Positions 35,218 through 40,889 of a stretch of DNA of 41,511 nt are shown here, piece after piece. The translations under genes were made by a program, and so were the position numbers. The stretch lies in NCBI GenBank assembly GCA_902801485.1, contig CADCIP010000029.1:1-41511 (forward strand), read 5' to 3'. The notes below the pieces were generated by a model, which was not told the origin of the DNA, did not search any database, and was given only the letters and a program-made list of their open reading frames with translations. The number at the start of each line of letters is the position of its first letter. The stretch's first letter is position 1. The stretch comes from an uncultured Bacteroidales bacterium. Its GTDB lineage: Bacteria > Bacteroidota > Bacteroidia > Bacteroidales > Bacteroidaceae.

Positions 35218-36855
35218 ATGAAAAGATTACTGATATGCCTACTGGCAAGCCAGATACTGTCAGGTGCAATGGCGCAAGAGAAAGACGTGCCCCGTATTGT
35301 CAACTTCGTCAACTTTGTCCGCGATATTGAACCGCGTGATCCGAATATAACGCCTCTTGTGCTTTACGAAACTGTGAAATCAGAGGCTGATGCTATCCAC
35401 CGTTATGGATTCAAGGGTACATGGCTCTTGCAATACGATGCCCTGATAGACAGCCGTTACCAGGCTATGATGAAAGAAGAGATGGCTCATGGATGTGAAG
35501 TAGGCGGATGGTGGGAAATCACCCAGCCGCACGTCGAAGCTGCCGGATACAAGTGGCGTGGGCGTTATCCGTGGGATTGGCATGCCGACAAGGGATTCTC
35601 CGTAGGCTATACGCCAGAGGAACGCGAGCGACTGGTGGATGTCTTTATGGAAAAGTTCCGCGAGATCTTCGGAGAATATCCCCATAGTATCGGCTCGTGG
35701 TTTATTGATGCCCATACACTTATCTATATGCGCGAGAAATATGGTATCGAGGCCAGTTGCAATTGTAAAGACCAGAAGGGTACCGATGGTTATACCCTCT
35801 GGGGCGGCTATTGGCATGGTGCCTACTATCCCTCGCGTGTGAATGCCTACATGCCAGCCCAGACGAAGAAGGGGCAGATAGATGTGCCCGTGTTTCGTAT
35901 GTTAGGCAGCGACCCTCTCTACCAGTACAGTTCAGGTATTGGCGGTGCCGTACAGAGTGTCTGCACCATAGAACCCACCTATGTTAACGCGCAACAGCCC
36001 GACTGGGTGCGATGGTATCTGCGTTGCCAGACAGACGATCCTGCCTTGGGCTTTACCTATTTCCAGGCGGGGCAGGAGAACTCCTTCACATGGAAGGTCT
36101 TCGCCAAGGGCTACGAGGTACAGCTTCCTCAGATTGCAGCCCTTCAGAGGGAAGGCAAACTTCGGGTGGAGACATTGATAGAAAGTGCCCGTGCCTTCCG
36201 GAAGAAATATCCCATAACGCCCGCTACAGCCTGCACTGCGCTGAGCGACTATACGGATAACAGAGGTCGCACCATCTGGTTTAACAGTCGCTACTATCGC
36301 GTCAATGTGCTGTGGGAAGGCGACCGCATGGGCATACGCGACATACATCTGTTCGACGAGAATGCAGAATCGTACTATTTGCGTAATGTGTGCACCTCAA
36401 ACGAGTGTATCTACATGACCCTGCCCATCGTGGATGGTTGCCTGTGGAGTACGGCAGACAATATGGCCAGCCTGCGCTTTTATGCTATCGAGGCAGATGG
36501 CCGGTTAAGGGAACTGAAGGGTGGCGAGCCGGTTATTGCACAGACTAAGGAAGGAATGAGTGTGCGTTGGCCGCTGAAAGGCGATGATGGAGAAATCCGC
36601 TTGCAGATGACAGAAGGCCTGTTCACCGCCTTCTGTACCCGGAAATCCCTTGCATGGTGTATGCAGTTGAATGTGCAGCCCCAAGCCAAGCTTCCCTTCC
36701 AGACTATAAATGGCAAGACATTATCGGCTACGCAGGAGAGTCATCCATACCGGCTGTCTCTTGACCGCGGTACCTTCCAAGACCTGCGTCATCATCCCGG
36801 ACTTGTGTTCAGCATCCTTCCTGAAAAGGGAAAAGTGTCGATGAGAATGAAGTAA
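35218..36855 (+). CDS. Secreted protein of unknown function, polysaccharide-deacetylase/GH-like barrel suspected
   Basis: A 545-residue protein with a signal peptide (MKRLLICLLASQILSGAMAQ). The first 300 residues read like a beta/alpha barrel of the NodB/GH57 type: FVNFVRDIEPRD, GFKGTWLLQYDALID, HGCEVGGWWEITQPHVE and SIGSWFIDAHTLIYMREKYGI, but the full NodB metal triad cannot be assigned with certainty. The last 180 residues are beta-rich. It lies downstream of the GH78 gene and may act on the same glycan (inference). Its last 54 codons are repeated at about 96% DNA identity in a pseudogene 3958 bp downstream, so a paralogue once existed. Confidence 0.9.
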   Translation: MKRLLICLLASQILSGAMAQEKDVPRIVNFVNFVRDIEPRDPNITPLVLYETVKSEADAIHRYGFKGTWLLQYDALIDSRYQAMMKEEMAHGCEVGGWWEITQPHVEAAGYKWRGRYPWDWHADKGFSVGYTPEERERLVDVFMEKFREIFGEYPHSIGSWFIDAHTLIYMREKYGIEASCNCKDQKGTDGYTLWGGYWHGAYYPSRVNAYMPAQTKKGQIDVPVFRMLGSDPLYQYSSGIGGAVQSVCTIEPTYVNAQQPDWVRWYLRCQTDDPALGFTYFQAGQENSFTWKVFAKGYEVQLPQIAALQREGKLRVETLIESARAFRKKYPITPATACTALSDYTDNRGRTIWFNSRYYRVNVLWEGDRMGIRDIHLFDENAESYYLRNVCTSNECIYMTLPIVDGCLWSTADNMASLRFYAIEADGRLRELKGGEPVIAQTKEGMSVRWPLKGDDGEIRLQMTEGLFTAFCTRKSLAWCMQLNVQPQAKLPFQTINGKTLSATQESHPYRLSLDRGTFQDLRHHPGLVFSILPEKGKVSMRMK

Positions 36856-38975: not shown

Positions 38976-39326
38976 TTACAAGTTGAAAAAATATCTGTGC
39001 CAATAACAGTCTGCATAGTATTTATAAGAAGACACATTTACATTCTTGTATGTTTTAAGTGTATTCTTTTGCACAGGGTATTCTCTCATATTGTACCAGA
39101 CATAATAGCCTCCACATGTGTTCTTCTTTTTATATATTTCACGAGTTTCTCTTTCATATGTTCCTTCGGTATTATCAATACATAATGCGTTCACTTTTTT
39201 TACAAATTCATCTTCGGTTGGACCATTTGTTGCAATGGCCTCAGACTTTGCGTCTGCTTTTAAATCTGTTGTAACACAAATGCTTACGCAAATAGCCAAG
39301 CTTAACAAAACTAATATTTTTTTCAT
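38976..39326 (-). CDS. Small secreted protein, unrecognised family
   Basis: A 116-residue protein starting MKKILVLLSLAICVSICVTT, a signal peptide or lipoprotein-like sequence. The mature part carries only a few cysteines (NALCID, NTCGGYY, ADCYWH) and many tyrosines near the C-terminus (CGGYYVWYNMREYP, SSYKYYADCYWHRYF). No family was recognised. It is flanked by long non-coding stretches and is AT-rich relative to the neighbouring housekeeping genes, which fits an accessory gene. Confidence 0.65.
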   Translation of the reverse strand: MKKILVLLSLAICVSICVTTDLKADAKSEAIATNGPTEDEFVKKVNALCIDNTEGTYERETREIYKKKNTCGGYYVWYNMREYPVQKNTLKTYKNVNVSSYKYYADCYWHRYFFNL

Positions 39327-39585
39327 TTTTCTTATTGCCAGTTATATCCCATCGGCCCGTCGGTTTTTGTGATTATTTTAGTGCTTTGAGTCTTTTGATA
39401 TGTACATAAAAAAGCATTGCACTTGGTTGCCTTTTCTGTTCTATGATGTACATATAAATACTTAGCTATGCTTCATCGGCTCATGGTACAATAAATAATG
39501 TATATAATAATATTATTTTAGTGTATGGTATTACACATCATTTCGTTAATCAAAGTCAAACAGAAGCAAGGTGGAAAAGTATACA
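39327..39585. other. Gene-free stretch
   Basis: AT-rich sequence without any gene, repeat or hairpin that was recognised. It would hold the leader of the small secreted-protein gene and the far end of the predicted RNA. Confidence 0.6.
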
Positions 39586-39589
39586 AAAA

Positions 39590-39840
39590 TGGCGTGGCCA
39601 CTCTTATGCACTTACCTGAGAGGCAGACCTCGGAATTGGAACCCCTACCTAACGTATAAGAATGCTACCACGCCAATGCGTGGTGCATAGCTTCATTGTT
39701 AAGTTAAGGGGGTAGCCTTTCTTAGCCTTTCCCTCTGCTCTTAAATCGAACTATTCCAAAAGAGATTTCCGAGGTCTTTTCGGTAAGTGCGAAATAAAAA
39801 GCTTATGCAACTGCGGTTCGGGATTTCTCCCCCGATACCG
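39590..39840 (-). ncRNA. Predicted structured non-coding RNA, 6S-like candidate
   Basis: The minus strand forms a hairpin at the predicted 5' end (CGGT-TCGGG 39814-39822 with CCCGA-ACCG 39831-39840). A long rod follows: GGTAAGTGC (39782-39790) pairs with GCACTTACC (39608-39616), TTCCGAGGTC (39767-39776) with GACCTCGGAA (39626-39635), and TTCCAA (39754-39759) with TTGGAA (39636-39641). Inside, ATGC and ACCACGC (39662-39673) pair with GCGTGGT and GCAT (39778-39788 minus 100, i.e. 39678-39688) around a CAAT loop. A large internal loop separates the rod from the apical hairpin. This layout resembles 6S RNA or the Bacteroidales-1 motif; the identity is unproven, but that it is a structured RNA is well supported. 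Confidence 0.6.
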
Positions 39841-39843
39841 TTG

Positions 39844-39874
39844 CAAAAATAGGGAAAATTTTATTACGAACAAA
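39844..39874 (-). promoter_or_regulatory. Promoter of the predicted structured RNA
   Basis: On the minus strand TTTG (39871-39874), a 19-bp spacer and TATTTTTG (39844-39851) match the Bacteroidetes consensus. The expected start site falls at about 39839, exactly where the 5' hairpin of the RNA begins. Confidence 0.7.
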
Positions 39875-39879
39875 CTTTT

Positions 39880-40317
39880 CATGAGGAAAAATGCAAAATC
39901 GCCCTTTATTTTCTCACTTTCTCTTAAGCGAAGTCTTTTCCGTTCTTGCTGAAAGTGTGGGAATTGGCCTATGATTCGTAATAGGGAGAGAACTAAGCAT
40001 ATTTGCTTCTTAAGGTACAATAAGATGCGGAGTTGAAATAATCCTGCATCTTGCGTTTAATGTTTTTGTCTGAGCCCCATATTTTACTCATATTTGAGAT
40101 TTTTTTCAAAAAAACTTGATTTTCTTGTTACAAAACAGCGAGTTGTGCGTAAAACTATTTGCTAAAGACTAATAGATGCCATTCTGTTGGGAAAAAAGAC
40201 GGGAATCAGGTTAATTGTACCTGTTTAGATGGACTTTTGTGGTATTTTTTTGAAAATTTAATGCCGGATATGGAAATTTTGGTTATTTTTGCAGTTAGTA
40301 TACCATAATTGTTATGT
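39880..40317. other. Gene-free stretch with one hairpin
   Basis: Apart from a stem AAGATGC/GCATCTT (40022-40052) and a possible -7 box TATTTTTG at 40284-40291 ahead of the pseudogene, nothing was recognised. Confidence 0.5.
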
Positions 40318-40817
40318 ATGAAGCATCTGTTGGGTTGGCTTAGGAAACGGTCCGTGATTGTAGTTATCATTCTGGCGGCAATGCTGTTAGAGGCGATTTC
40401 TGCTTTTCAGTATGGCTATACACGCGACCTTCTGGAAAGGGAACTGGAAAAAGTTGTTTCTTTGAACTGACATCATCGGCACTTCGTATTCAGGAGGTAA
40501 CATCCGAAGTAGAGGTAATGGTTGCTAACCAGATGTGGCATGTTAAAAGACATCTGCATGAGCCCGATTATATGGGTGAGTTGGCTGCTAACATGGTGAA
40601 ACAGGGCGGCTTTAACATCCTTGGTGGAGGTGCTGCATTCAAGCCAGACTTCCCTTCCAGACTATAAATGGCAAGATACTGACGGCTACGCAGGAGAGTC
40701 ATCCATACCGGTTGTCTCTTGATCGCGGTACCTTCCAAGACCTGCGTCATCATCCCGGACTTGTGTTCAGCATCCTTCCGGAAAAGGGAAAAGTGTCGAT
40801 GAGAATGAAGTAAGAGA
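40318..40817 (+). pseudogene. Chimeric pseudogene: SpoIIE-sensor 5' fragment joined to barrel-protein 3' fragment
   Basis: The frame starts MKHLLGWLRKRSVIVVIIL, with a membrane helix, and breaks at TGA 40468-40470. One frame over, from 40464, the sequence continues as ELTSSALRIQEVTSEVEVMV and VKRHLHEP. This aligns without gaps to residues 43-77 of the intact sensor at 1108, so a single-base frameshift is present. At about 40640-40648 it switches to a copy of the last 54 codons of the gene at 35218 (positions 36691-36862), out of frame with the first part. The two copies differ at about seven of 172 bases and two of 54 residues. The junction contains CAAGCCA, shared by both parents. Confidence 0.88.
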
Positions 40818-40889
40818 CCGTTCGTTGGAGATGTACTTGTCGTGCCGTTCGAATAGTCGTTTCATACCTCTTTGTTTAGTAAAATATGA

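Follow-up and report, generated by a model that had tools for sequence, protein, structure and literature searches.

A covarying 5´ leader RNA with mutually exclusive predicted helices upstream of surface and defence genes in Bacteroidales

Transcription-attenuating riboswitches and T-box leaders, the latter represented by a model in Rfam, have a conserved core in the 5´ leader, mutually exclusive helices and a terminator-like end before the start codon. The RNA described here resembles them in its large conserved 5´-leader core, its exclusive helices and its terminator-like end. It differs in having no Rfam match and in preceding restriction-modification, defence and surface genes rather than the genes of one metabolic pathway. 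A second point of comparison is 6S RNA, a housekeeping RNA expected in nearly every genome. Both 6S (RF00013) and the Bacteroidales-1 motif (RF01693), with models of 187 and 179 positions, respectively, share with the present RNA a long rod and a central bubble; the present RNA matches neither model, is patchy and multicopy, and is a cis leader. The AbiF-associated RNA is reportedly one RNA tied to one protein family, whereas the architecture found here precedes many unrelated gene families. The likeness is that of a noncoding RNA beside anti-phage genes (PMC12373285). Candidate structured RNAs from the human microbiome, obtained by the same approach, include Bacteroidetes candidates of which some are palindromic; the words restriction, methyltransferase and defense are absent from the main text, and an unlabelled listing in the supplementary tables is possible (PMC8040213). 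6S RNA and its product RNAs are described for B. thetaiotaomicron in sections of PMC7366714, and the paper defining Bacteroidales-1 presents the motif in a table and a figure legend, parts in which no equation with 6S RNA was noticed (PMC2864571). A search confined to the text of open PMC papers revealed no description of the present RNA, and an unlabelled earlier listing is possible. With neither an Rfam match nor a description found in that search, the family is apparently undescribed.

The window, i.e. the whole stretch of DNA analysed here, comprises 41,511 nucleotides from an uncultured bacterium of the Bacteroidaceae. One copy of the RNA occupies window positions 39583-39874 on the minus strand and consists, 5´ to 3´, of a promoter, a 5´ hairpin, a long rod and a terminator-like hairpin. 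Three segments of it, denoted A, M and T, are central to the argument below. The features are as follows.

39844..39874, minus strand: Bacteroidetes-type promoter, TTTG, 19-nt spacer, TATTTTTG
39806..39845, minus strand: 5´ hairpin with loop GAGAAAU, located at the predicted start; other hairpins take its place in some copies
39782..39790, minus strand: helix 1, 5´ strand GCACUUACC, 9 bp with 39608-39616
39767..39776, minus strand: helix 2, 5´ strand GACCUCGGAA, 10 bp with 39626-39635
39698..39711, minus strand: variable helix, 5´ strand; nearly every copy has a sequence of its own here, with the pairing maintained
39678..39692, minus strand: A arm, the 5´ arm of the apical hairpin; A:M covariation
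39656..39675, minus strand: M arm, the 3´ arm of the apical hairpin, complementary also to the terminal segment T
39642..39653, minus strand: variable helix, 3´ strand, running into a conserved GGGG
39626..39635, minus strand: helix 2, 3´ strand UUCCGAGGUC, pairing with 39767-39776
39608..39616, minus strand: helix 1, 3´ strand GGUAAGUGC, pairing with 39782-39790
39590..39607, minus strand: T segment, the 5´ arm and loop of the terminal hairpin, alternative partner of M
39583..39607, minus strand: terminator-like hairpin and U tract, AUAAGAGUGGC CAC GCCAUUUUUGU, a pattern match
38976..39326, minus strand: downstream gene of 116 aa with a signal-peptide-like start, beginning about 256 nt after the terminal hairpin

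A preliminary description of this DNA had proposed an unannotated, minus-strand structured RNA with its own promoter at 39590-39874, an interval that proves accurate to a few bases. The promoter sequence is present, and the nested helices, apical hairpin and 5´ hairpin that it listed are all found in the predicted fold, which recovers the 9-bp and 10-bp helices together with an inner UUGGAAU/GUUCCAA helix. The 262-nt stretch folds at -106.1 kcal/mol compared to a mean of -68.4 (sd 4.5) for 200 dinucleotide shuffles, i.e. about 38 kcal/mol below the mean (z -8.5). None of the 200 shuffles folds as well, and the 191-nt rod taken by itself scores z -8.1. What the earlier description did not include is the U-tract hairpin at 39607-39583, which is complementary to an arm of the apical hairpin. 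By eye, a pseudoknot between an internal GGG and an invariant GCCCC is also possible. The 5´ end appears modular: GAAAT occurs at the site of the 5´ hairpin in 122 of 164 copies, and copies such as L226, L234, L083 and L009 have a replaced or interrupted 5´ hairpin with promoter and core unchanged. Elsewhere in the window, a decayed C-terminus of a 545-aa open reading frame (35218-36855, plus strand) lies at 40640-40820 (plus strand), about 3.8 kb downstream of that frame. It looks like a partial duplication; the RNA leader and a gene that by eye resembles an ATPase lie between the two.

The RNA belongs to a family. By blastn it was found in 12 of 101 genomes, the source genome included, and a pattern built from two conserved segments gave many more sites in named genomes among the matches listed, not all of them real. 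A first profile scan of 159 loci with nhmmer yielded 61 copies, defined as hits of distinct sequence scoring at least 80 bits, many of them in rumen contigs labelled Prevotella or Prevotellaceae; 57 of the 61 were aligned for the analysis of covariation. A covariance model of the 200-position core was used for the genome counts. It scores the window copy at 184.8 bits (E 4e-44), this copy being itself among the 57 sequences of the model, and detects a second copy in the same genome (C38:291-488, 110 bits). Searches of more than 40 genomes were run with stricter filters, so that the copy counts are lower bounds. Read in this way, the RNA occurs in at least 43 of 139 genomes of the genus (64 copies, one to three in each), at the level of the family in at least 87 of 399 genomes (15 of 30 genera), and in an order-wide sample in at least 20 of 393 (13 of 207 genera), where several scores are weak. 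In a phylum-wide sample of 395 genomes, these filters returned the source genome only.

For comparison of copies, we used a set of 178 hits with distinct cores that score at least 30 bits and span more than 120 model positions, and a subset of 168 scoring at least 60 bits. From the latter, 97 copies could be parsed for the variable helix, 94 for the fold of the terminal hairpin and 167 for the M:T duplex, and 164 had enough upstream sequence for analysis of the promoter box. Of these 164 copies, 135 have a box of the form TAnn(n)TTTG at 15-80 nt (median 40 nt) upstream of the core, compared to 63 of 1450 background windows (4.3%); an upstream TTG at the right spacing to the box is present in only 82 of the 164. 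The next gene within 600 nt downstream is codirectional in 165 of the 178 copies, opposite in 6 and absent in 7. The orientation of the upstream gene is random (79 vs 82), so the downstream codirectionality is not a regional bias, and the element is accordingly a 5´ leader. Start codons follow the approximate end of the terminal hairpin at a strikingly constant distance, with a median of 47 nt and quartiles of 38-55 nt, in frames called by a simple longest-frame script in which a few start codons are probably wrong (e.g. L061 and L231). The window copy, with its gene starting about 256 nt downstream of the hairpin, falls outside this usual spacing.

From its shape, the preliminary description had suggested that the RNA might be the 6S RNA of the order, or Bacteroidales-1. 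The rod and the large internal loop are all that speaks for this, and we regard the proposal as scarcely credible. At gathering level, Rfam has no family, the T-box included, in the whole window, and among 20 related loci (83,153 bases) the only match was one tRNA. A permissive search of 39300-40100 up to E 10 gave five sub-threshold matches, none of them to 6S or Bacteroidales-1. The Bacteroidales-1 RNA of this genome is located on a different contig (C13:20527-20705, 156.3 bits), and RF00013 has zero matches up to E 1 in the whole genome. Neither does the distribution show the ubiquity of 6S RNA, the RNA being found in 43 of 139 genomes of the genus and in 8 of the 18 of those that are at least 90% complete with at most 5% contamination, counted with strict filters that weak copies may escape. 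A patchy, multicopy RNA directly upstream of codirectional genes is unlike a housekeeping 6S RNA, and membership in either family is ruled out by the model searches. The alternative that had been offered, a new structured RNA, is supported.

The rod is maintained by compensatory changes. In the 57 aligned cores, five counted helices (35 pairs) have 98.5% of their alignment cells paired, and changes on both sides of a pair are seen in 16 of the 35 pairs and 187 cells, compared to 11 pairs and 43.6 cells in shuffles. The helices drawn in the preliminary description from a single copy are in this way upheld by their relatives. Helix 1 is paired in 99.8% of cells with two-sided changes in 5 of 9 pairs, and helix 2 in 99.5% with such changes in 8 of 10 pairs. 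When the partner strands are slid, 23-40% of cells pair and 11-20 have two-sided changes. One measure, the count of further pair types, is no higher than in shuffles (34 vs 35.1). The copies share descent and were partly gathered by a pattern taken from the RNA itself, and the counts for the predicted rod are limited by this shared ancestry, yet the slid controls are far off. In the variable helix, 85 distinct strands occur among the 97 parsed copies, and a complementary run of at least 8 is found in 76 of the 97 compared to 18% with swapped partners. A role of this helix as a guide or target was considered and rejected, since its strands are no more complementary to their own downstream 250 nt than to the downstream sequences of other copies.

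One arm of the RNA has two predicted partners. M, which pairs with A in the apical hairpin, could also pair over some 14-18 bases with T, which otherwise forms the U-tract hairpin. The M:T duplex has a mean energy of -23.4 kcal/mol, compared to -11.7 (sd 2.8) with shuffled T, and lies beyond 3 sd in 151 of 167 copies; the 16 that fail include the very divergent L253 (-13.3) and L211 (-15.2). In the 167 copies, 91.1% of the M:T cells are paired (shuffles 87.9), and 98 two-sided changes are distributed over 12 of 16 pairs, compared to a mean of 42.2 and a maximum of 56 in 300 shuffles. For A:M, there are 27 two-sided changes vs a mean of 6.9 and a maximum of 14 in 300 shuffles. A slid A:M control also yields many two-sided cells (5 to 34, with only 16-57% paired), making the A:M covariation less secure than that of M:T. 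When segments are swapped with those of a divergent copy, the own T is the better partner in 76% of cases and the own A in 64%. M and T have changed together in, e.g., L259, L300, L245, L282, L198 and L239. In L253, UAUGAAC/GUUCAUA stands in place of GGCGUG/CACGCC, and the hairpin partner A likewise reads UUCAUA, in a duplex that is weak. An arm with two partners that both covary, as the alignments suggest here, is the signature of a bistable RNA.

The energies of the two states are of similar size across the family, the terminal hairpin (mean -9.5 in 94 copies) and A:M (-15.8) together being about equal to M:T (-23.4 kcal/mol). In the window copy, the M:T duplex is calculated at -24.8 kcal/mol, the rod with the terminal hairpin at -109.1 and a nested fold with M:T at -83.1; for an M:T pseudoknot with helices 1 and 2 retained, the sum is -101.5, the pseudoknot penalty excluded. 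From these energies, the off state is the predicted resting state, and a signal, a protein or kinetic capture would be required to reach M:T. Within 39400-40000, where shuffles average 0.5 terminator-like sites, only the terminal hairpin was found to be of this kind. It has a short stem of G and C with a U tract that is partly paired or interrupted, and the 34-nt terminal fold ranges from -13.6 to -5.2 kcal/mol (5th-95th percentile of the 94 parsed copies). Its covariation is weak (14 two-sided cells vs 6.7, with shuffles ranging up to 32). A U-rich stretch follows the hairpin in the inspected copies of both subclasses described below.

Taken across copies, the RNA is found in the 5´ region of a codirectional gene, has a conserved structure with compensatory changes and has helices that exclude one another, M:T as against A:M and the terminal hairpin, the last point by comparison and with window energies that favour one state. 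We are highly confident that this is a genuine, covarying family of 5´ leaders. Comparison of the copies establishes a promoter box, a rod that covaries, placement immediately upstream of a codirectional gene, and mutually exclusive predicted M:A and M:T helices, each with two-sided changes beyond those of shuffles.

The genes behind the leader are diverse: 170 first downstream proteins fall into 74 clusters. In one cluster of 69 proteins, every member matches PF13651, the EcoRI-type adenine methyltransferase, and 47 of 51 second genes scanned behind this cluster carry a GmrSD_N domain (51 of 64, with 13 cut-off genes excluded). A copy in a cultured isolate labelled Marseilla massiliensis An824 (L051) likewise precedes a methyltransferase of the EcoRI type. 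Representatives of other clusters, 11 proteins altogether with nine run against both of two profile libraries, matched an N6/N4 methylase, an N6 methylase with an HsdR N-terminus, HsdR, an MmeI-like type IIG enzyme, an HKD-plus-Snf2 helicase and the candidate defence families PDC-S11 and PDC-S48; two (L271 and L242) had no match in either library. A scan of 98 of the 101 first proteins outside the methyltransferase cluster (L120, L207 and L300 excluded) revealed BspA-type repeats, BACON, fimbrillin-like and outer-membrane proteins, and also methylases. By a crude script, 55 of the 170 first proteins have a signal-peptide-like start. A scripted motif pattern, which misplaces some copies, divides the RNA into two subclasses, A (85 copies) and B (83 copies); the methyltransferase cluster follows 4 of the former and 61 of the latter. 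The window copy belongs to subclass A and the second copy in its genome to subclass B, before a PF13651 gene. Within the genus, the RNA lies 78-130 bases upstream of 27 of 65 PF13651 matches, which accounts for 27 of its 64 copies; the association is thus strong but not obligatory. In 30 methyltransferase loci examined out of the 65, a strong hit was obtained in 11 and a weak one in one (L312). These domain matches suggest that subclass A controls surface and other proteins, and subclass B restriction-modification and other defence genes. Two observations concern the shorter downstream genes. Subclass-A leaders at L052 (the same copy as L006), L125 and L061 are followed by short cysteine-rich peptides with twin-arginine-like signals, and at L006 the next gene is radical SAM-like (by eye), so that a ribosomally made peptide natural product is possible. 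By eye, L001 and L167 share ACCGAYGGGCCGATGGRATATAACWGGCAATAAG shortly before the start codon, in front of unrelated short genes.

Subclass B has a further element. After the terminal hairpin, an inverted repeat of conserved sequence, GCGAUUGAUAGU ... ACUAUCAAUCGC, is present in 55 of 83 subclass-B copies and in 3 of 85 subclass-A copies. The next ATG, which is the start codon in the examples inspected, follows 0-7 nt after CUAUCAAUC, and the inverted-repeat arms GCGATTGATAGT/ACTATCAATCGC are close to the ATG in, e.g., L234 and L181. By eye, the repeat looks kept by sequence rather than by compensation, like a candidate binding site.

We favour the reading, with a probability of roughly 0.6, that the RNA is a bistable, cis-acting 5´ leader that controls its gene, probably as a transcription attenuator of surface and defence genes. 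A leader of some 260-310 nt would be transcribed from its own promoter ahead of the controlled gene. With M paired to A, the terminal hairpin and its U tract would be free to form, transcription would stop and the gene would be off. A signal acting on the conserved core would free M, M:T would form in place of the terminal hairpin, and readthrough would turn the gene on. In subclass B, the second conserved hairpin ending just before the start codon may provide a further check on translation. The alignments are best read as a competition between A:M, M:T and the terminal hairpin that decides whether transcription enters the gene, with termination suggested by a pattern match and weak covariation. 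The main rival to such a switch is a cis leader in which M:T is part of a fixed, protein- or ligand-binding pseudoknot that acts on translation or mRNA stability, the terminal hairpin being no terminator. M:T covaries and could coexist with helices 1 and 2, the U tract is short and interrupted by C in many inspected copies, and in 55 of 83 copies the subclass-B hairpin lies directly in front of an ATG, all of which would fit. We nevertheless find the fixed pseudoknot unlikely, because it leaves the two-sided A:M changes on the shared M arm unexplained; against it, too, is the U-rich stretch behind the hairpin in inspected copies of both subclasses.

Other readings dispense with a switch in cis. 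The own promoter, the terminator-like end and the 74 clusters among 170 downstream proteins would suit a trans-acting small RNA that ends at the terminal hairpin and has the neighbouring gene as cargo or target. This is improbable in view of the 165 to 6 codirectionality, the near-constant spacing to the start codon (38-55 nt quartiles), the subclass-B conserved hairpin that reaches the start codon, and the variable strands, which have no excess complementarity to the downstream 250 nt. Several perfect inverted repeats and weak hits on the reverse strand could likewise indicate an element that acts as DNA, e.g. a site for recombination or for a regulatory protein; the G-U intermediates among the two-sided changes, the near-constant distance of the promoter box and the strict orientation to genes make this very improbable. 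An extension of the favoured attenuator, put forward tentatively and in our view doubtful, is that the family represents a new ligand- or infection-sensing class of switches, a common on/off gate for unrelated restriction-modification, anti-phage and surface genes, in which the hypervariable helix is insulating and could prevent cross-pairing between copies within one cell.

How restriction-modification and defence genes are kept ready without self-harm is a long-standing question, and the known answers are mostly protein controllers and antisense RNA. A single covarying RNA leader ahead of many unrelated defence and surface genes would add a new regulatory layer in the abundant Bacteroidales of gut and rumen. 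The leader may offer a handle on when defence systems switch on and help to locate defence genes; should it bind a ligand, it would be a new riboswitch class.

Several further identities were considered and rejected. A leader peptide seems improbable, as indels between copies would break any reading frame (by eye). The terminal inverted repeats raised the idea of a retron or reverse-transcriptase partner; no reverse transcriptase was noticed among the open reading frames inspected by eye, and the neighbours are diverse. A mobile plasmid or phage element was dismissed on blastn searches in which the window and one related locus (L010) were both without match to plasmids and L010 was without match to phages, and on the finding that, of 26 viral contigs that carry the pattern, one (L147) gave an nhmmer match. 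Decay of the element is suggested by one locus (L008, G017:C16), where at 1496-1569 on the minus strand the promoter and the 5´ hairpin are kept, helix 1 breaks off after its beginning, and another terminator-like hairpin follows at once. This is apparently what remains of a truncated copy. This locus and L009 adjoin genes that by eye resemble those of cobalamin biosynthesis.
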